IMG/VR virus record: IMGVR_UViG_3300012008_000018
Location: 1-38,594 of that record
DNA length: 38,594 bases
Strand: one strand, 5' to 3'
From: a virus
Shown one piece after another: positions 2,583 through 13,653 of the stretch; position 1 is the stretch's first letter, and every line of letters begins with the position of its first letter. Below the pieces are notes generated by a model that was not told the DNA's origin, searched no databases, and saw only the letters and a list, made by a program, of their open reading frames with translations. The translations under genes were made by a program, and so were the position numbers.

Positions 2583-2917
2583 GAACGACGTGTGAGTGCT
2601 ACAACTGCATGGCGCAATATCAGGACGATGAATGCGGAATTGAAACCCAATCCTCATGGGCGAGGAGAGTGGGTCACGCAAAGGAAATTGAAGCTTCTCG
2701 TGTATCGGTACTCGAAGCCCGCTGCGCGGATCTAGAAGACTCTTGCCACCGTATGGATCAAGACCGCCAATTCCTTATGAATAAGTGCGCCTGGCAAGCT
2801 GAGATGATTTCCCGAGCAAAGCGAATTATCGAAATGGTCGAGACGGTCGATGAACCGATTGAAGACTGGCTCTCCGACCTCTCCTCGCTCTCGGGGAAGG
2901 GGGAGATCAATGGGTGA
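2579..2917 (+). CDS. Hypothetical coiled-coil protein with N-terminal cysteines
   Basis: The 112-residue product starts MRTTCECYNCMAQYQDDECG, with four cysteines within about 20 residues, which could form a small metal site. A long heptad-rich helix follows, from about residue 35 to 95 (EIEASRVSVLEARCADLED onward). It looks like a small oligomeric adaptor, but no family is recognised. The ATG overlaps the preceding stop as ATGA. The next gene begins at 2910 inside its last codons, preceded by a GGAAGGGGGA ribosome site. Confidence 0.72.
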   Translation: MRTTCECYNCMAQYQDDECGIETQSSWARRVGHAKEIEASRVSVLEARCADLEDSCHRMDQDRQFLMNKCAWQAEMISRAKRIIEMVETVDEPIEDWLSDLSSLSGKGEING

Positions 2918-3077
2918 CGCGAATAGCGGCGGCGATCGACTGGCCGCTTTTTTAGAAGGAAAGTCTCTTTCTCCCCGTGTTTACAGCGTTTTAGTCGTGA
3001 CGAGCCGAAATGCAATTAAGTTCATCGCAGGAAGCGCGGGCTGGCCGCCGCTCCTGCAAGTGCAGGGAGTGAGATGA
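2910..3077 (+). CDS. Small hypothetical protein (55 aa)
   Basis: The ATG at 2910 follows a strong purine-rich ribosome site (GGGGAAGGGGGA) and overlaps the upstream gene by eight bases. An earlier in-frame ATG at 2850 lacks such a signal. The product is 55 residues, with a charged start (MGDANSGGDRLAAFLEGKS) and a mildly hydrophobic middle (SPRVYSVLVVTSRNAIKFI) that is too polar for a confident membrane segment. The function is unknown. The stop overlaps the next ATG as ATGA. Confidence 0.6.
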   Translation: MGDANSGGDRLAAFLEGKSLSPRVYSVLVVTSRNAIKFIAGSAGWPPLLQVQGVR

Positions 3078-3373: not shown

Positions 3374-4735
3374 GTGAAAAACTCAGTGATCGAACTCTAT
3401 GATTATCAGAAAGTCGGAGCGGCCTGGCTGGCGGGAAGAACTCACGCGTTACTTGCGGATGAGATGGGTCTCGGTAAATCCGCCCAAGTCGTCCGCGCCT
3501 GTGAAGAAATCAAAGCGAAGAAAGTCCTCGTCATTTGCCCGGCAGCGGCAAGGGTAAACTGGCAGCGGGAGTTTAAGCTGTTTAGCGACCGCGAAATGGT
3601 CGTCGTAGCTAAACCCTCCGATCCGTTCACATCGGACGATTCGCTGATCGTTTCGTACGATCTGATTTCAAAACATCCGAATCTCGGCGTCTTCGACGTC
3701 GTCGTCGCCGACGAATCCCATTTCATCAAAGGGATCGCTACTAAACGCACCCAGGCGATTCTCGGAACTTCTGGCACCATTCACCGCGCGACGCACTTCT
3801 GGGCGATCTCCGGAACGCCCGCGCCCAATCACGTGGGCGAGCTCTGGCCGCTTCTTTACACGTTCGGCGTGACGGAACTCAGCTACTCCAAATTTGTCGC
3901 CCGTTATTGCAATTCCTACGAGTGGACTCACGGTCCGGTGATTACCGGCACCAGAAAAGGCATGGAACCCGAGATCCGCGAAATGCTCAGTAGAGTAATG
4001 CTGAGAAGAAAGAAAGAAGAAGTCATGAAAGAGCTCCCGCCAATTTTCTATCAGACGGTCGTTGTTGAACCAGGTCCAGTGGATCTCGACACGGACATGG
4101 GTTTTGTCTCGTACGTCTTTCCAGTCGATCGCAGGAAAGAGCTCCACGAAAAACTTACGTCGGAAAAAATTCTTCTTGAAACTGCCGTGTCTAAAACCGG
4201 ACTCGGGGGCGACGGTTTGAAGTTGCTAGAAGGTTTAGCGAAGAGCGTTTCTACGCTCCGCAGATATACGGGCCTTCAGAAAATTCAGTCCGTAGCCGAT
4301 GTAATCGAATCGGAATTGGAGGCGAATGCGTATGAAAAAATCGTTTTATTCGGAATTCACCAGGCGGTGATCGAAGGCTTGAGAACGAGGCTATCGAAAT
4401 TCGGCGCGGTCACTCTTTACGGAAAAACTCCCCCCGGGAAACGAGACGAGAACATTGATTCATTTCAAAAAGATCCAAAAACGAGGGTTTTTATAGGGAA
4501 TATTCAAGCAGCCGGTACGGCGATCACGCTCACGGCGGCTCATCACGTAGCGTTTGTAGAGAGCGAGTGGGTTCCGGCGGCGATGGCGCAAGCTGCGATG
4601 CGCTGTCATCGTATCGGGCAAGATAAGCCGGTCACGGTTCGTTTCTTTTCCCTGTCAAATTCCATAGATGAAAAGATTACCGAACGACTGAAGAGAAAGA
4701 CGCGAGAGCTCACCGAAATATTTGATGTGCAGTAA
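3374..4735 (+). CDS. SNF2-family DEAD/DEAH-box helicase
   Basis: The 453-residue protein has a complete two-lobe helicase core. Walker A is DEMGLGKS (about residues 29-36), the DExH box is DESH (113-116) and motif III is SGTPAPN (146-152). The second lobe has GNIQAAGTAITL (about 375-386) and the SNF2-type HRIGQ (412-416). It is compact and SMARCAL1-like, without accessory domains. As an ATP-driven DNA translocase it could remodel replication forks or assist recombination in the phage replication module. The start is a GTG at 3374; another GTG lies four codons later. It heads the replication cluster after a 150-base gap. Confidence 0.93.
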   Translation: MKNSVIELYDYQKVGAAWLAGRTHALLADEMGLGKSAQVVRACEEIKAKKVLVICPAAARVNWQREFKLFSDREMVVVAKPSDPFTSDDSLIVSYDLISKHPNLGVFDVVVADESHFIKGIATKRTQAILGTSGTIHRATHFWAISGTPAPNHVGELWPLLYTFGVTELSYSKFVARYCNSYEWTHGPVITGTRKGMEPEIREMLSRVMLRRKKEEVMKELPPIFYQTVVVEPGPVDLDTDMGFVSYVFPVDRRKELHEKLTSEKILLETAVSKTGLGGDGLKLLEGLAKSVSTLRRYTGLQKIQSVADVIESELEANAYEKIVLFGIHQAVIEGLRTRLSKFGAVTLYGKTPPGKRDENIDSFQKDPKTRVFIGNIQAAGTAITLTAAHHVAFVESEWVPAAMAQAAMRCHRIGQDKPVTVRFFSLSNSIDEKITERLKRKTRELTEIFDVQ

Positions 4736-5164: not shown

Positions 5165-5944
5165 ATGAATCAACTCGTTCTCATTGATGAGCTCGAGGGT
5201 GCAACTGCGCCCGCTCATTCTAAAATAGGCGCAAGCTCGATGTCCCGCTGGTCAAAGTGCCCAGGGTCCGTGCGTATGTCGGCGAGTATTCAAGACGTGC
5301 CTTCGAAGTATGCGGCTGAGGGTAGCCGCGCTCACGCTTTGGCGGAAACTATTCTGAGCGACCGCACTCTGGGTGCTCTCGCCGACGCGAGTGAAGATAT
5401 GCTCGCCGCGGTCCGCATTTACGTGGACTTTGTCCGCAGCATTTCCCGCGGGGCGGTTCTCTTTATCGAGCACAGGTTTGATCTTTCTTCCCTTCACAAA
5501 GGACTCTTCGGTACGGCGGACGCAGTAGTTTACCAAGCATCCACTAAGCATCTAATCGTGGCCGACTACAAACACGGGAGTGGAATCCCAGTGGAAGTAG
5601 TCGGCAACGTACAGCTCATGTACTACGGCTTAGGCGCTTTGCTCAGTTTCGGTTATCCGTGTGAAACGGTTGATCTCGTAGTGGTCCAGCCGAGATGTCC
5701 CCATGTAGGCGGGCCGATTAGGTCTTGGCGTATAGATTCTTTTAGGCTTCTCGACTTTGCAGCGGACCTAGTAGAATTCGCGAAGTGCACAGAAGAACCA
5801 GATGCACCTCTCGTGCCGGGAGATCACTGCCAGTTTTGCCCGGCTAATTTTTACTGCCCCGTCGCCGCGCCTAGACCCAAGTGGAAGCCTGCGCCGCGGG
5901 ATCCCGCCCTCGATTTTCAACCCGTGGATTCATCCACCGCATAG
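5165..5944 (+). CDS. DUF2800 family nuclease (PD-(D/E)XK, RecB/Cas4-like)
   Basis: The 259-residue protein carries the DUF2800 hallmarks: an N-terminal SRWSKCPGSVRMS block, AAEGSRAHALAE, and a nuclease core with E102, GTAD (D119) and VADYKHG (D134, K136), then QLMYYGLGALL. Cys32 combined with C222-x2-C225-x5-C231 reproduces the spacing style of the iron-sulphur cluster in Cas4/AddB nucleases. It is therefore predicted to be a DNA exonuclease used in replication or recombination. It sits directly before the single-strand-binding protein, the usual arrangement in phages that carry both families. AGGA lies upstream of the ATG. Confidence 0.9.
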   Translation: MNQLVLIDELEGATAPAHSKIGASSMSRWSKCPGSVRMSASIQDVPSKYAAEGSRAHALAETILSDRTLGALADASEDMLAAVRIYVDFVRSISRGAVLFIEHRFDLSSLHKGLFGTADAVVYQASTKHLIVADYKHGSGIPVEVVGNVQLMYYGLGALLSFGYPCETVDLVVVQPRCPHVGGPIRSWRIDSFRLLDFAADLVEFAKCTEEPDAPLVPGDHCQFCPANFYCPVAAPRPKWKPAPRDPALDFQPVDSSTA

Positions 5945-5984: not shown

Positions 5985-6530
5985 ATGGCTAATATCGTTA
6001 CTCCAAAATTCCGCGTCTCCTATCCCAAGGTTTTTAAGGCCGAGATTAATAAGCTCTCCGGAAAGTCGGAATACGGGGTCGTCGCTTTGTTCGATAAAGG
6101 CGCCGATCTCTCGGCTCTTCGTGAAGCAATTAAGGCCGCAATCGTTGAGAAGTGGGGCCCAGATGCTTCCAAGCACCCGAAGAATCTTCGCAATCCTCTT
6201 CGCGACCAAGCCGACAAGGCGAAGGACGGGATCATGCCCGACGGCCACGTTGAAGGCGCTTATTTCCTCAACCTTAAATCAACCCAGAAACCAGGCGTTG
6301 TGGATGAGAACGTGCAACCAATTCTCGATGAGTCGCAGTTCTATGCGGGCTGTTACGCTCGGGCTTCTGTTTCCGTTTATGCCTACGATCAAGCTGGAAA
6401 TCGGGGAGTGGGGATTGGGTTAACGAACATCCAAAAGGTCGCCGATGGAGATCCGTTCTCGGGTCGTCCGAAACCGGAAGATTCGTTTAAGCCCGTAGCC
6501 GGCTCGGCTAACAACGCTTCTATTTTCTAA
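5985..6530 (+). CDS. DUF2815 single-stranded DNA-binding protein (Enc34-type)
   Basis: The protein starts MANIVTPKFRVSYPKVFKAE and contains the family's LFDKGADLSALREAIKAA segment, GAYFLNLKS, and QFYAGCYARASVSVYAYD near the end. These match the DUF2815 family, whose phage Enc34 member is a characterised OB-fold ssDNA-binding protein. The C-terminal tail (about residues 158-181) is flexible and ends in IF. The ATG at 5985 follows AAAGG; the frame upstream is open but shadows the nuclease. It protects ssDNA at the fork and probably works with the neighbouring nuclease and polymerase. Length is 181 residues. Confidence 0.9.
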   Translation: MANIVTPKFRVSYPKVFKAEINKLSGKSEYGVVALFDKGADLSALREAIKAAIVEKWGPDASKHPKNLRNPLRDQADKAKDGIMPDGHVEGAYFLNLKSTQKPGVVDENVQPILDESQFYAGCYARASVSVYAYDQAGNRGVGIGLTNIQKVADGDPFSGRPKPEDSFKPVAGSANNASIF

Positions 6531-6534
6531 AGTT

Positions 6535-7596
6535 ATGGCGAGCGTAGCGTTCATCGACTTCGAGACCCGTAGCACGGTTGACCTTAAGAAATCGGGGTCG
6601 GACGTTTACGCTCGCCATCTAAGTACCGAGATCATGTGTCTGAGTTACGCATTTGATAACGGTCCTGTAAAAACGTGGCGACGGCTGGACGACAGTCCTT
6701 CACTCCTTTTGCGTCATGTGAGTGAGGGGCATCCAGTCGTCGGTCACAATATCGGCGGCTTTGAAGTTCCAGTTTGGAATAACGTCGGAAAGCGGCTCGG
6801 CTGGTCGGAACTTAAAATTGAACAATGCCGAGACACGATGGTCATGGCCTACGCGATGTCACTCCCGGGAAGCCTTGAGCATGCAGCCGCGGCCGTCGGA
6901 ATCGAAGCGCAGAAAGATCTGAAAGGTTCGCGGATCATGCTCACCCTATGTAAGCCGAAGGGATTTACGGACTACGGCGCACCGACGTGGGATGAGGATC
7001 CGGATAAGCTGGAAGCCTTATATCGGTACTGCGAGCAGGACGTCGAGGTGGAACGGCAGCTCTATAATAGACTTCAGCCTCTATCGGCCGACGAGCAGGC
7101 GGTATGGGTTCTGGATCATAAGATCAATCAGCGGGGAGTGAAGCTCGCGGCGAAAGAGTTAGACGCCGCGATTAAAATCGTCGATCTCGAGAAGCGGAAG
7201 TTCAATCAACGCATTCAGAAAATCTCAAAAGCGTTTATCTCGACGTACAACGAGACGGGGCGGTTCAAAGAGTGGATTGAGAGCCGGGGAGTAGCGAATG
7301 TACCGAGCATCGCGAAAGCCGATGTCGTCGAACTCTTATCTCGCGAGGACTTACCGGCAGACGTTCGTGAAGCATTGATGCTTCGCCAAGAGGCCGCGAA
7401 GTCGTCGACTGCAAAACTAGAGTCGATGATTTCGTCCACCGGCTCCGATGGCCGTATCCGGGGAATATTTCAATATCACGGAGCGGGCACGGGCCGGTGG
7501 GCTGGCCGGAGAATTCAGCCTCAAAATTTCCCCCGTGGGAACTTGAATCCCACGCAAGTGGAAGAGGTGTTCGGCGTTCTAGGAGGTATTTCATGA
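6535..7596 (+). CDS. Family-A DNA polymerase, N-terminal part (3'-5' exonuclease, start of polymerase domain)
   Basis: The 353-residue product begins with a proofreading exonuclease: Exo I FIDFETRS (D8, E10), Exo [10 protein letters not shown] (N72; E77 where other families have Asp), Exo [11 protein letters not shown] (Y165, D169). The rest enters the polymerase domain up to the [15 protein letters not shown] block (about residues 322-336), which in undivided homologues immediately precedes the palm. It then stops. The palm and catalytic motifs lie in the next gene, which begins on an ATGA overlap in another frame behind its own AGGAGG ribosome site. The two products must assemble if the polymerase is active; that is inference. 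Confidence 0.9.
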
Positions 7597-8522
7597 ATTC
7601 TCCACAAGCCGCCGAATACCTAGACTGCTTCTTCGGATCTCCGCTGGATGTAGTCTCAAGCTGTCTCCGCGGCTTCTTTGTTCCGGAGGCGGGAAATGAT
7701 TTTATCTGCGCTGATTACTCGTCCATTGAGGCGCGAGTGCTAGCCTGGCTGGCTGGCGAGGAACAAGTTCTCGAGATTTTTAGAACCCACGGGCTTATTT
7801 ATGAGCATGCTGCCGCGGGTATCTTCAGCGTCTCGATGGAAGATGTTTCAAAATTCCAGAGGCTTGTCGGAAAGGTCGCGATTCTGGCGCTTGGTTACCA
7901 AGGCGGCATCGGATCTTTTCAAACGATGGCAAAAAACTACGGGGTTAAAGTTCCGGATGCGGAAGCGGAAAACATCAAAGTAGCGTGGCGGACAAAGCAC
8001 CGTAATATCGTGCAGTACTGGTACGATTTAGAGCGCGCGGCTATCGCCGCTATCGAGAACAAAGGCTCTGCGTTCCCTGCGGGATACGAAGGTCGCGAAG
8101 TTAAATACAAAGTTTCTGGTTCGTTCTTGTGGTGCCTTTTACCCTCGGGCCGCATGATCTGCTACCCATACCCAGAAATGCGAATGGTCGACACTCCCTG
8201 GGGAGAACCGAAATACGCCGTCACTTATATGGGCACAAACCCGAAGACTAAGAAATGGGAGCGCCAGAAAGCTTACGGAGGCTTACTCGCCGAGAACGTC
8301 ACCCAGGCGGTAGCCAGAGACTTACTCGCGGCGGCGTTACTCCGGTTTGAATCGTCCGGCTATCCCGTCGTAATTCATGTCCACGACGAGGTTGTCTCAG
8401 AAGTCCCTGAGGGTTTTGGATCGGTCGAAGAGTTTGAACAAATCATGTGCGCAAGTCCGGCTTGGGCGAAAGATCTCCCCGTCGCGGCCGAAGGTTGGCG
8501 CGGAAAAAGGTACAGAAAATGA
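7593..8522 (+). CDS. Family-A DNA polymerase, C-terminal part (palm and fingers)
   Basis: The ATG at 7593 lies six bases after AGGAGG and overlaps the upstream stop as ATGA, giving 309 residues. All catalytic motifs are here: motif [19 protein letters not shown] (D41), motif B R90-x3-K94 with Y102-QGG, and motif [12 protein letters not shown] (D265, E266). The N-terminal segment up to [15 protein letters not shown] continues the sequence left off by the upstream gene, so nothing essential seems lost at the split. The frame is open upstream to 7497, but that part shadows the first gene. The stop overlaps the primase start as ATGA. Confidence 0.92.
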
Positions 8523-10684
8523 CGAAGCTTGATAGTGCGCTACTCCTGGCTCGTAAGGGCTTTCATGTTTTCCCGCTCGTAGCGAATACGAAAATTCCGC
8601 CACGGGAAATGGACGACTTTCCTTCTCGCGCGTCGAACGATCCGGAGACTATCCTTGCCTGGTGGACGGAATCCCCTAACGCAAATATCGCCATTTCCAC
8701 GACAAAATTTAATGGGTCGGGAGCACTCCTCGCCGTGGACGTCGATAACAAGAACGGCGTCTCCGGAGATGACACCCTCTTTGGGCTCGAGATTGAGGGT
8801 CATCTTTTACCCAAGACGTTTACGCAGCACACCCCCACCGGCGGAAAACATCTTCTCTATTACTGTTCCCGCCCGGTGCGGAACAGCGCTAAGAAAATCG
8901 GGGCCGGAATCGACACCCGCGGAATTGGCGGATACGTGGTCGGCGCCGGATCCACTATCGGCGGGATTGCATACACGTTTGAAGACTTTGAACTTGTCGA
9001 TGCTCCCGAGTGGCTGGTCGAGAAGTGTTTGGATACCAGAACTAAGGGCGAGAAACTTCCCGCAGTGGAAGGCGTGAATCAGGGTTTCGCAATCAAGCGC
9101 GCCGAACACTATCTGTCGCATGAGGCTTTCAGGGGTATCGAGGGATCGCGTAATCACACTGCGTTTTGTGTAGCTTCAAAAATTAAAGACTACGGCGTTT
9201 CCGAGGTCGATTGCATCCTACTTATGAATGAGAAATGGGAGTGCAATCCTCCGCTCGAGAAACACGAGTTAACTGCGGTTATCTCAAGCGCATACAAGCA
9301 CGGCGACAATCCTCCTGGATCGCTCTCGCCGGAAGCCGTTTTCTCTCCGGTGGGGGAGGAGCCGACGCCATTTTATTTAGACGAGATCAATAGAGAATAT
9401 GCGCTCCTCTACGAGGACGGCGGGCACGTCGTTATGAAAGAGGTCCGCGATACCAACGGCGACGAGCGCCTAAAGATGTATCCCGAAGTTACTTTTAACC
9501 GAATCTTCTCTACCCGCACGGTACAGGAAACTGACGGCAAGACGATTAGAGAAGTTCCGTATTCAAAGAAGTGGCTTAACTGGCCTGGTCGCCGCGAGTA
9601 CGAAGGCCTGTGTTTCAGCCCAGGCCGCGAGCCTCCGGAAGGTTATTACAATCTCTGGCGTGGGTTCAGGGTTCAGCCTCTCGCGTACGAGAAGGCGGAT
9701 CTCTTTCAGCGCGCGGGTTTTGATGCGTTCATTGCTCACGCCAAAGAGAACGTGTGCGGCGGCGACGAAAGCCTCTTCATCTGGTTAATGGGTTATTTCG
9801 CGCACATGATTCAGAAGCCTTTTGAGCGCCCGCTCACGACGCTTGTTTTCCAAGGGCGAAAGGGGACCGGTAAAAATACGCTCGTTGACCGAGTAGGATT
9901 TCTGCTCAGAGAGCACTACAAGGTCGCGGCAGATTCGCGTTACCTCACTTCCCATTTCAATGGGCATCTCGATTCCTGTCTCATGCTCGTTCTCGACGAA
10001 GCTTTCTGGTCCGGCGACAAGTCGGCGGAAGGTAATCTTAAAAGCTTAACGACCTCGCCTAGGATTATGATCGAGCGCAAAGGCAAAGAGCCCTACATGG
10101 TGGATAACCTCGTCCGCCTGGTCGTGATCGGAAACGAGGAGTGGTTAGTCCCTGCATCGGCCGATGAGCGGCGGTACGCCGTCTTCCGAATGGGGGAGGC
10201 GAAGATGCAGGATACGAAGTTCTTCCGCGAGATGGTTCAGAATATGGACGTCCACGGGGGCTCCCGGGTCCTTCTCGATTATCTCCTCCACTTTGATCTC
10301 TCGGTTACGGATCCGAACATCGCACCCCAGACGGAAGGACTCCTTAGTCAGAAGACGGCGTCGCTTGGCGCGTTCGGATCTTGGTGGCAGGAATGCCTGA
10401 CTGAGGGCGCCATCACGGGTAATTCCTGGTCGCTGATTATCGATAAAGTTCACTTCCGGGATTCGTACGAAAAGTACTGCGACTCTATCCGGAGCTCGCG
10501 TTGGCTGTTCGATAACCGGAAGATTGGCCATTTTCTCAGGAAGTACTGCCCGTCTGCCCGGACCGATACCAAGCGCCGAGACGGCGAGGGTTTCGTCCGT
10601 ACCTACACGATGCCCGATCTAGAAACCGCCCGTGCCGAGTGGGCAAAGTATCTCGGCTTTGACATCGATTGGAGCCAAGAATGA
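8519..10684 (+). CDS. Primase-polymerase / superfamily 3-type helicase fusion
   Basis: The 721-residue protein starts at an ATG that overlaps the polymerase stop. The N-terminal archaeo-eukaryotic primase (prim-pol) domain covers about residues 5-170, with the metal-binding DVD (D74, D76), TPTGGKH (H111) and [13 protein letters not shown] PriCT-like helical segment follows (about 205-268). The C-terminal ATPase has Walker A GRKGTGKN (446-453), Walker B LVLDEA (490-495) and a downstream [18 protein letters not shown] sensor block, as in DUF5906/NrS-1-type helicases. It should prime DNA synthesis and unwind the template ahead of the divided polymerase. The next gene starts on ATGA. Confidence 0.92.
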
Positions 10685-12344: not shown

Positions 12345-12745
12345 GCTTTGAGCTGAAAATGATCCAGGTCTTTGAAGTGCTTCCAAGATCCGCCCCACTC
12401 GATAGGAGCGTTTTGATCATCGATCCAATTCGCGATCTGAACGTAAAAGCCAGCACGGAATTCAGCCGATTGGCCTTGGGCGGTTTCAATTAGACGAAAG
12501 AGATCCATCGCAAGCGAACACGGTTTTCCGTCTTCCATGTGGTTGTGTTTTGAGTTCGGCCATTTCAAGAGCGACTTCTTATCGGCCACGAGTTGGTCCT
12601 GCATCTCTTTGCCGCACCACACGCGGTCAACGTGAACGTCGGGGAATGCTTCCTCGATACGATAGTACCAGTAACGGATCTGTTCATGCGCTTCTTCGAG
12701 CATCTCCGCGCAGCGCTTACAGTTGCCGCCGTTATCATGTTTCAT
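12341..12745 (-). CDS. Endolysin, M15 family (L-alanyl-D-glutamate type) peptidase
   Basis: The 134-residue protein carries the M15 zinc-peptidase ligands. H67 lies in KWPNSKHNH, D81 in CSLAMDLFRL and H129 in the terminal KHFKDLDHFQL, with the typical EWGGSWKHF block before it. This layout matches phage peptidoglycan endopeptidases that cut the stem peptide. No signal peptide is visible, so it needs a holin or equivalent. An N-terminal extension of about 30 residues has a CKRC pair not usual for the family. It is the last late gene, starts on ATGA with the lipoprotein upstream, and converges on the integrase. Confidence 0.88.
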   Translation of the reverse strand: MKHDNGGNCKRCAEMLEEAHEQIRYWYYRIEEAFPDVHVDRVWCGKEMQDQLVADKKSLLKWPNSKHNHMEDGKPCSLAMDLFRLIETAQGQSAEFRAGFYVQIANWIDDQNAPIEWGGSWKHFKDLDHFQLKA

Positions 12746-12999
12746 TGGTCCTCCAGAATCTTAGTGATCGGATCAACCGGGAAACAGACATAGCCACCGT
12801 CTTGAAGGTTTTGGAACGGTCTAGTCTGCGCGCTGCCGTCTGCAAGCGCACACTGAAGGGCATCGTTGCGAGGATCCGGCACGCAAACTTCTATACGAGC
12901 TCGCTTGCGCACCGGACCCTGCGTCGTCGAGCAGCCTATCATTGGTGTCGTGATGACGGCGCTAACGAAACAAAGCGTCTTGATAAGCCCTTGCGGCAT
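12742..12999 (-). CDS. Small lysis lipoprotein, candidate outer-membrane spanin (Rz1-like)
   Basis: The 85-residue product has a signal sequence ending in a lipobox, MIGC, with Cys23 as the predicted lipidated residue. The mature part contains three further cysteines and VCVPDPRNDALQC and YVCFP motifs of a type seen in phage lysis lipoproteins. Its 5' end overlaps the 3' end of the membrane protein at 12962-13180 out of frame, as Rz and Rz1 do. It lies directly before the endolysin. It would act with the inner-membrane partner to fuse or disrupt the outer membrane. The spanin role is inferred from architecture. Confidence 0.65.
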   Translation of the reverse strand: MPQGLIKTLCFVSAVITTPMIGCSTTQGPVRKRARIEVCVPDPRNDALQCALADGSAQTRPFQNLQDGGYVCFPVDPITKILEDQ

Positions 13000-13180
13000 T
13001 CTGTCTTTCCTCAGTCGTCTTGGCGTTCTTTAATAAATCGGCAGCCCCATCGACCCGTTCCTTAAACGCAGGATCGCTTCGATACCTTTCCTCGAACTTC
13101 AGGAAGATATACGAAAGCGCAGGGAACAGAATCTTCTGAACCCACGGACTCGACAGAGCTGCCAAAAAGAATGCGGGCAT
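12962..13180 (-). CDS. Small membrane protein, candidate inner-membrane spanin or holin
   Basis: The 72-residue protein has an N-terminal hydrophobic segment (FFLAALSSPWVQKILFPALS) and a charged helical C-terminus (AADLLKNAKTTEERQNAARA). One N-terminal membrane anchor plus a cytoplasmic or periplasmic helix suits an i-spanin, although it is short for Rz. A class III holin-like role is an alternative. The overlap with the lipoprotein gene favours the spanin reading. The ATG overlaps the upstream stop as TAATG. Confidence 0.55.
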   Translation of the reverse strand: MPAFFLAALSSPWVQKILFPALSYIFLKFEERYRSDPAFKERVDGAADLLKNAKTTEERQNAARAYQDALFR

Positions 13181-13440
13181 TAGGCTTTGGCAATCTCAGC
13201 GTCTACGAGTGCCTTAAGCGCAGCCACTTCACCGGCAATGACTGGGAACTTAGCAGATACGATATCAAGGCCGGCATCGATCAAAAGCTTAGACTCAAGA
13301 TCAACTTCGATATTCGCCGATCCCTTAACGAAACCAGCAACACTACCGCCGCCAGCCGATTGCGCGATTGCGACGGTGAGTTTAAATTCGCCGCCATTTT
13401 CACTGATCATAACCGGACCATATTGTTTACTGAAGCTCAT
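13180..13440 (-). CDS. Hypothetical protein in the lysis region
   Basis: The 86-residue product begins MSFSKQYGPVMISENGGEFKLTVAIAQS and has a Gly-rich turn (SAGGGSVAGF). It then appears as alternating beta strands (SANIEVDLESKLLIDAG) followed by a helix (AGEVAALKALVDAEIAKA). There is no signal peptide or membrane segment. No family is recognised. It lies between the coiled-coil gene and the candidate spanin, and its stop overlaps the next ATG. A structural role is possible. Confidence 0.75.
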   Translation of the reverse strand: MSFSKQYGPVMISENGGEFKLTVAIAQSAGGGSVAGFVKGSANIEVDLESKLLIDAGLDIVSAKFPVIAGEVAALKALVDAEIAKA

Positions 13441-13452
13441 GTGATTCTCCTT

Positions 13453-13653
13453 TTACTTACGTTTGTTGGTGGGCTCTGGTTCCGCTATCGACACGAACGG
13501 GGTGTTCATGACGAAAGCGAGATTCTTTAGGTTTATTTCGAAATTCTGAGCGGCAAGCGAGAAGCGGTTACGGTCCTGATTCACGTCCACTTGGAGCGCG
13601 ATTAGGCGGTTCTTTAGGTCGTCCACTTCTTTGGCGAGCTCCTCTATGGTCAC
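13453..13653 (-). CDS. Small coiled-coil protein, late region
   Basis: The start is GTG at 13653, overlapping the preceding gene's stop as GTGA, after an AGG-containing site. The 66 residues open with a heptad-patterned helix (MTIEELAKEVDDLKNRLIAL) and end in a basic tail, TNKRK. It looks like a small oligomerising protein, possibly associated with tail or lysis functions. No family is recognised. Confidence 0.65.
   Translation of the reverse strand: MTIEELAKEVDDLKNRLIALQVDVNQDRNRFSLAAQNFEINLKNLAFVMNTPFVSIAEPEPTNKRK

Follow-up and report, generated by a model that had tools for sequence, protein, structure and literature searches.

Family-A DNA polymerases are textbook single-chain enzymes. 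In the phage locus described here, the layout of one polypeptide that is usual for this family is replaced by two consecutive ORFs, the first with the exonuclease part and the second with the polymerase part. This raises the question of whether the phage makes a genuine polymerase from two genes, or whether an ordinary polymerase gene only appears divided.

Genomic context of the divided polymerase

The material analysed, hereafter the window, is one whole IMG/VR record (IMGVR_UViG_3300012008_000018; 38,594 bases). The record is that of a podovirus-like temperate phage, in which integrase, portal-like head-tail adaptor and terminase genes are present. The coordinates given below for the replication operon and its motifs are all on the plus strand. 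The operon starts with genes for an SNF2-type helicase (3374..4735; Pfam), a 118-aa protein, a DUF2800 protein of the PD-(D/E)XK nuclease family (5165..5944; Pfam) and a DUF2815/Enc34-type single-stranded DNA-binding protein (5985..6530; PF10991, phrog_112). The exonuclease half (6535..7596, P0001) and the polymerase half (7593..8522, P0002) follow, and a Prim-Pol/DUF5906 primase gene (8519..10684; Pfam) lies 3' of the latter. The stop of the polymerase half and the start of the primase form an ATGA overlap (8519-8522). Given that the junction between the two halves is also an ATGA, the boundary between them resembles a normal one between genes of this operon.

Two further features were seen elsewhere in the window. 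An array of the hexamers CGCCTA, CGCCAA and CGCCGA (63-217, inside the ORF 10-279) encodes a long run in which Ala alternates with Tyr, Asn or Asp. One early operon contains a pair of paralogous genes for small DNA methyltransferases (312-794 and 1822-2283; phrog_111), which share a 41-nt stretch at 80%.

The two ORFs together cover the polymerase family

P0001 (353 aa) matches RNase_H_2 in Pfam and carries all three 3'-5' exonuclease motifs: exo I, DFE (residues 8-10, 6556..6564), exo II, HNIGGFE (residues 71-77, 6745..6765), which contains a one-residue insertion, and exo III, YCEQD (residues 165-169, 7027..7041). D8, E10, Y165, C166 and D169 are invariant in alignments with relatives. Near its C terminus, P0001 also holds the TGR...QNFPR block (residues 319-334, 7489..7536), in which T319, G320 and R321 are invariant and which aligns with TGRLSSTDPNLQNIPVR of Klenow. 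By this alignment, R321 is the equivalent of Klenow R668, so that the TGR..QN(L/F)P palm segment is present in the split enzyme, but on the exonuclease half.

P0002 (309 aa) matches DNA_pol_A (PF00476) with 69.5 bits against a cut-off of 34.3, as well as phrog_10285. Motifs A, B and C are all found on it. Motif A (D..E), DYSSIE (residues 41-46, 7713..7730), has D41 and E46 invariant and aligns with Klenow D705; motif B (R-x3-K-x7-YG type), the fingers O-helix (7860..7907), has G93, K94, V95, L98, A99, G101, G104 and G105 invariant; and motif C, HDE (residues 264-266, 8382..8390), has H264, D265 and E266 invariant.

Both halves are 45-60% identical to relatives, and the catalytic motifs of both activities are kept. 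The two ORFs cover phrog_17 practically contiguously, at positions 670-989 (exonuclease half) and 992-1232 (polymerase half), and therefore nothing of the family is missing from them. An earlier note, made from the letters alone, had assigned the exonuclease motifs and the QN block to the first gene and motifs A, B and C to the second, and had proposed that the family is covered without loss. The motif and Pfam assignments bear out the former; the contiguous coverage and the catalytic residues, which are invariant in both halves when the products are aligned with relatives, support the latter.

The ORFs meet at a start/stop overlap with a ribosome-binding site

The ATG of the polymerase half (7593-7595) overlaps the TGA of the exonuclease half (7594-7596) in an ATGA (7593..7596), which places the second ORF in the -1 frame relative to the first. 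A Shine-Dalgarno site, AGGAGG (7581..7586), lies within the last codons of the first gene, six nucleotides (TATTTC) upstream of the start. Both the overlap and the site are as the earlier note had described them. When 40 gene starts of the window were scored, this match (AGGAGGT through 7587, 7 nt) came out longest; the ranking is only rough because a few of the listed starts are certainly mis-set.

This arrangement suggests how a family-A (Klenow-type) polymerase could be made as two polypeptides from adjacent genes. A ribosome that ends the first chain on the TGA, or one loaded at the AGGAGG within the last codons of that chain, would start the second chain at the overlapping ATG. With such a linkage, both chains would be made close together and in linked amounts, and they would then be expected to join non-covalently into one polymerase-exonuclease.

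Alternatively, one normal polymerase gene could appear broken through an error of sequencing or assembly, or through a recent frameshift mutation, since the source is a single IMG/VR contig and most relatives are undivided. A search of IMG/VR found no other copy of the exact junction. The chance of such an origin was assessed by a script that inserted or deleted one base at each position in turn in 230 distinct undivided relatives. Only 46 of the 735,025 simulated indels (6e-5) put an ATG across the new stop and had 6 nt or more of Shine-Dalgarno match; the rate was 1.1e-3 for a 7-nt match and a start no more than 30 nt away. In addition, homology is kept to the very ends of both ORFs. It reaches residue 351-352 of the 353 residues of P0001 (compared with the loci L104, L105 and L031), where the C-terminal stretch resembles the exonuclease halves of other split phages, and it begins at residue 1 of P0002 (compared with L002).

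The same cut is found in other phages

Loci were pooled from phage records, IMG/VR and GTDB genomes. Undivided polymerases account for about 237 distinct relatives, and the nearest named record, MW202898 (L002), encodes an undivided protein of 650 aa. In 12 other IMG/VR contigs, the same linker is the end or the start of a half. Three of them (L104, L105 and L031) carry the exonuclease half, an ORF of 54-60 aa and the polymerase half in a row, with the small ORF at 4053-4232, 4071-4240 and 2869-3001, respectively. The split relatives closest to the window have such an ORF between the halves, which the window lacks. The small ORFs of L104 and L105 are alike by eye and that of L031 differs; searches of Pfam and PHROGs with these ORFs and with gp14 of phage MEP401 gave no credible family. 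The polymerase half of L104 is without a clear ATG, GTG or TTG near the expected start and is in frame with the small ORF past its TGA.

Of the remaining split contigs, seven have an exonuclease-only gene, which adjoins an integrase gene in those viewed, and two have a polymerase-only gene. The split exonuclease genes of L130, L133 and L138 are about 98% identical and come from different metagenomes. In two of the exonuclease-only contigs, the polymerase half was found about 10 kb away on the opposite strand (G005: exonuclease 1876-2904, minus, and polymerase 12424-13350, plus; G007: exonuclease 1409-2428, minus, and polymerase 12543-13475, plus). In both, a DUF2800-like gene, the integrase gene and the exonuclease gene are in one operon; the opposite operon contains the polymerase gene, 5' of a primase-like gene. 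The polymerase start of G007 overlaps the stop of an unrelated upstream gene. One cut is seen in three gene layouts: direct overlap, a small ORF between the halves, and separated halves.

Genuine frameshifts do occur in the set, for example in L103, L016 and L049, and this keeps error or mutation in view for the window. In L103, the frame breaks inside the QN block (about 2912-2962), but there is no ribosome site at the break; that locus illustrates how error or decay looks. The same cut in other phages, with the halves parted by a gene or on opposite strands, also speaks against error, and no one-base error can give the layout of G005 and G007. In view of these relatives, a sequencing error or fresh frameshift appears very unlikely, and the argument of the earlier note against it, made from the ribosome site, has held up.

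Five loci that had been candidate splits (L103, L016, L049, L086 and L187) proved not to be split; frameshifts, a short duplication in frame or a false alarm account for them. In L187, a short stretch of the exonuclease coding region (about 2230-2300) is duplicated in tandem (GCCATGCCGCGCAGCAGCCCTG type), which shifts the frame. In both L084 and L099, the frame that matches best switches inside the exonuclease domain (about 2230-2420), near a TGATAG of the upstream frame. L139, L158, L160, L182 and L183, with their copies, are undivided and have a few hundred extra residues around motif B, which are probably inteins.

Slippage or splicing at the junction is improbable

Two ORFs in this relation may also be joined by programmed -1 frameshifting in their overlap, which would yield one fused protein. 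The polymerase frame, -1 relative to the exonuclease frame, is open upstream from about 7371, and the overlap contains the canonical heptamers AAATTTC (7524) and TTTCCCC (7527). However, a slip at these heptamers would swap a conserved segment for an unrelated one, whereas the frame-0 segment resembles that of relatives. The same heptamers are present in the undivided L290 and L292, so they reflect the QNFP codons, and the separated halves of G005 and G007 cannot be fused by slippage. No slippery site was found that joins conserved coding segments and is kept in relatives of the same layout. We regard frameshifting as highly unlikely.

Two such halves could also become one product through splicing, if the junction held a group I intron or a split intein. 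There is precedent, as an intron was suspected by the authors who described phages MEP401 and MEP402 (PMC10580990), and the split PolB of phage MIJ3 is reported to carry an intein (PMC6892783). The window, however, has no insert at the junction but just the 4-nt overlap, and an Rfam scan of the window and of L104, L105 and L031 gave no family match. The insert ORFs of the relatives are too short for inteins and match no family. Splicing is thus extremely improbable, and we favour two chains that remain two chains.

The cut lies inside the palm

To place the cut in the fold, undivided relatives were combined in a profile and aligned to Klenow. By this alignment, the palm itself is divided, after the QNxPR segment (Klenow LQNIPVR) and before IRQAF and motif A. 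A family-specific linker of about 36 residues stands here in place of the few Klenow residues between LQNIPVRNEE and IRQAF, before D705. Chain 1 comprises the exonuclease, the thumb and the first palm segment, and chain 2 carries the D705 equivalent, motif B and motif C. The division had been placed just before the palm in the earlier note; this needs correction, as the first product also includes the thumb and the first palm segment.

An AlphaFold model of the undivided L290 polymerase (mean pLDDT 91) has Klenow-type polymerases as its best solved matches, and at the point where the window ORFs would meet, this model has a turn that connects helices 332-340 and 345-352. When chain 1 was modelled alone, pLDDT fell below 50 at residues 311-353 (shallow alignment, 8 rows), and the equivalent segment is ordered in the L290 model (26-row alignment). 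Low confidence at these residues is as expected if the segment folds only against chain 2, which the models support weakly because the alignment depths differ.

The linker at the cut is highly variable in length and sequence among relatives, and in Acinetobacter phage Scuro and Shewanella phage SppYZU01 it holds a Cys-rich insert at the place where the window is cut. Fission would plausibly arise in a surface linker of this kind, in which insertions are already tolerated. Across the split lineages, the cut points agree to within a few residues. A zinc-finger-like Cys-rich insert at this linker was seen in L003, L004 and L010.

In Klenow, R668 contacts the primer terminus and the thumb holds the duplex. 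With the R668 equivalent and the thumb on the exonuclease half, the polymerase half alone should be a poor polymerase or none, and neither product should polymerise on its own. Non-covalent assembly is expected because the polymerase active site would be built from both chains, and we infer an obligate two-chain enzyme.

It may be argued that the halves do not form one enzyme at all, and that they are separate proteins whose new roles are independent (the one as a free nuclease acting in proofreading or on DNA ends, for instance, and the other as a stripped polymerase) or a decaying pair while the host polymerase replicates the phage. The halves of G005 and G007 lie in different transcription units, in keeping with this, and therefore equal dosage is not enforced there. 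Against it, no catalytic motif of either activity has been lost, at 45-60% identity to relatives; the R668 equivalent and its palm segment are still part of the exonuclease half; and the cut points stay within a few residues of each other across lineages. Separate roles or decay are unlikely on this evidence. Since relatives with separated layouts exist, translational linkage would not be essential in all phages.

Taken together, the locus very likely holds a genuine two-gene family-A polymerase, whose two polypeptides would assemble into one polymerase-exonuclease. The DNA itself shows that both ORFs are intact, that signals for coupling are present, that no part of the family is missing and that other phages have this cut; coupled translation in vivo, assembly and activity are what these features predict.

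Number of origins of the split

Maximum-likelihood trees of 75 rows were built, one for each half. The split label needs four changes on these trees. A single origin of all splits was rejected on both (p-AU 2e-7 for the exonuclease half and 6e-4 for the polymerase half), as was one clade of the window with L104, L105 and L031 (p-AU 0.008 and 0.0004). One origin for the window and L104/L105 was not rejected (p-AU 0.50), and because this grouping stands, the claim is of at least three origins, not four. The one-residue exo II insertion (GHNxGGFE type) marks a 10-member clade, which consists of the window, L104, L105 and seven undivided relatives. The trees are explained either by at least three origins of the split or by one early split and repeated re-fusion.

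Comparison with known polymerases

Replicative polymerases in pieces are known from other polymerase families. Split gp43 occurs in some T4-like phages. A split PolB with a split intein and a homing endonuclease has been described in phage MIJ3 (PMC6892783), and a split PolIII alpha in group 2.2 jumbo phages (PMC7824862).

Within family A, a split PolA was published in 2023 for the OM43 phages MEP401 and MEP402 and related genomes, being found in most of that group (PMC10580990; OP830906); it was not characterised biochemically, and the authors suggested an intron (PMC10580990). As in the window, a family-A polymerase lies there in two ORFs, exonuclease first, and is cut just upstream of motif A. 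The small ORF between the halves is a likeness to L104, L105 and L031 and not to the window, which has consecutive exonuclease and polymerase ORFs as in the MEP401 type and lacks the intervening ORF. MEP401/402 belong to a distant polymerase lineage with low similarity to the window, and MEP401 is cut some 15 residues further on, where motif A immediately follows (gp13 ends ...FLSRYGE and gp15 starts MILNADAK). Their gp14 is always between the halves, whereas the window has a direct ATGA and G005 and G007 have separated halves. A single chain is not a defining chemical feature of family A, and MEP401 is a published exception.

MW202898 and L290 have a phrog_17-type PolA in the same neighbourhood as the window (a DUF2800-type gene, the single-stranded DNA-binding protein gene, polymerase and primase), and MW202898 is 58% identical to the polymerase half and 45% to the exonuclease half. 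They differ in that one chain of 647-650 aa has a helical linker at the place of the cut. The HMO-2011-type PolA, with a DnaJ-like zinc domain between exonuclease and polymerase (PMC9038755, PMC6918029), likewise has extra material between these domains, but as an insertion in one chain and with no division.

The open papers searched contain no report of the arrangement in the present lineage or of separated PolA halves (subscription journals lay outside the search). Four aspects are new here: halves that are directly coupled at their junction, halves that lie apart, repeated division at a single linker, and an active site that is inferred to be composite.

Implications for family-A polymerases

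With about even chances, fission of phage PolA recurs at the linker before motif A: at least three lineages here, and the unrelated MEP401 lineage, would each rely on a replicative polymerase of two obligate chains whose active site is composite. In one clade, the chains are encoded on opposite strands, which could let the phage tune proofreading and synthesis separately. Where the halves are separated, annotation pipelines will report an "exonuclease" and a "partial polymerase" and treat them as broken or as having nothing to do with each other. Natural two-chain versions that are cut through the palm would show where the fold tolerates a break, and they may serve as ready-made split polymerases for biotechnology. 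For the phages themselves, they raise the question of whether an active site common to two chains can serve replication, and of why the cut has arisen repeatedly.
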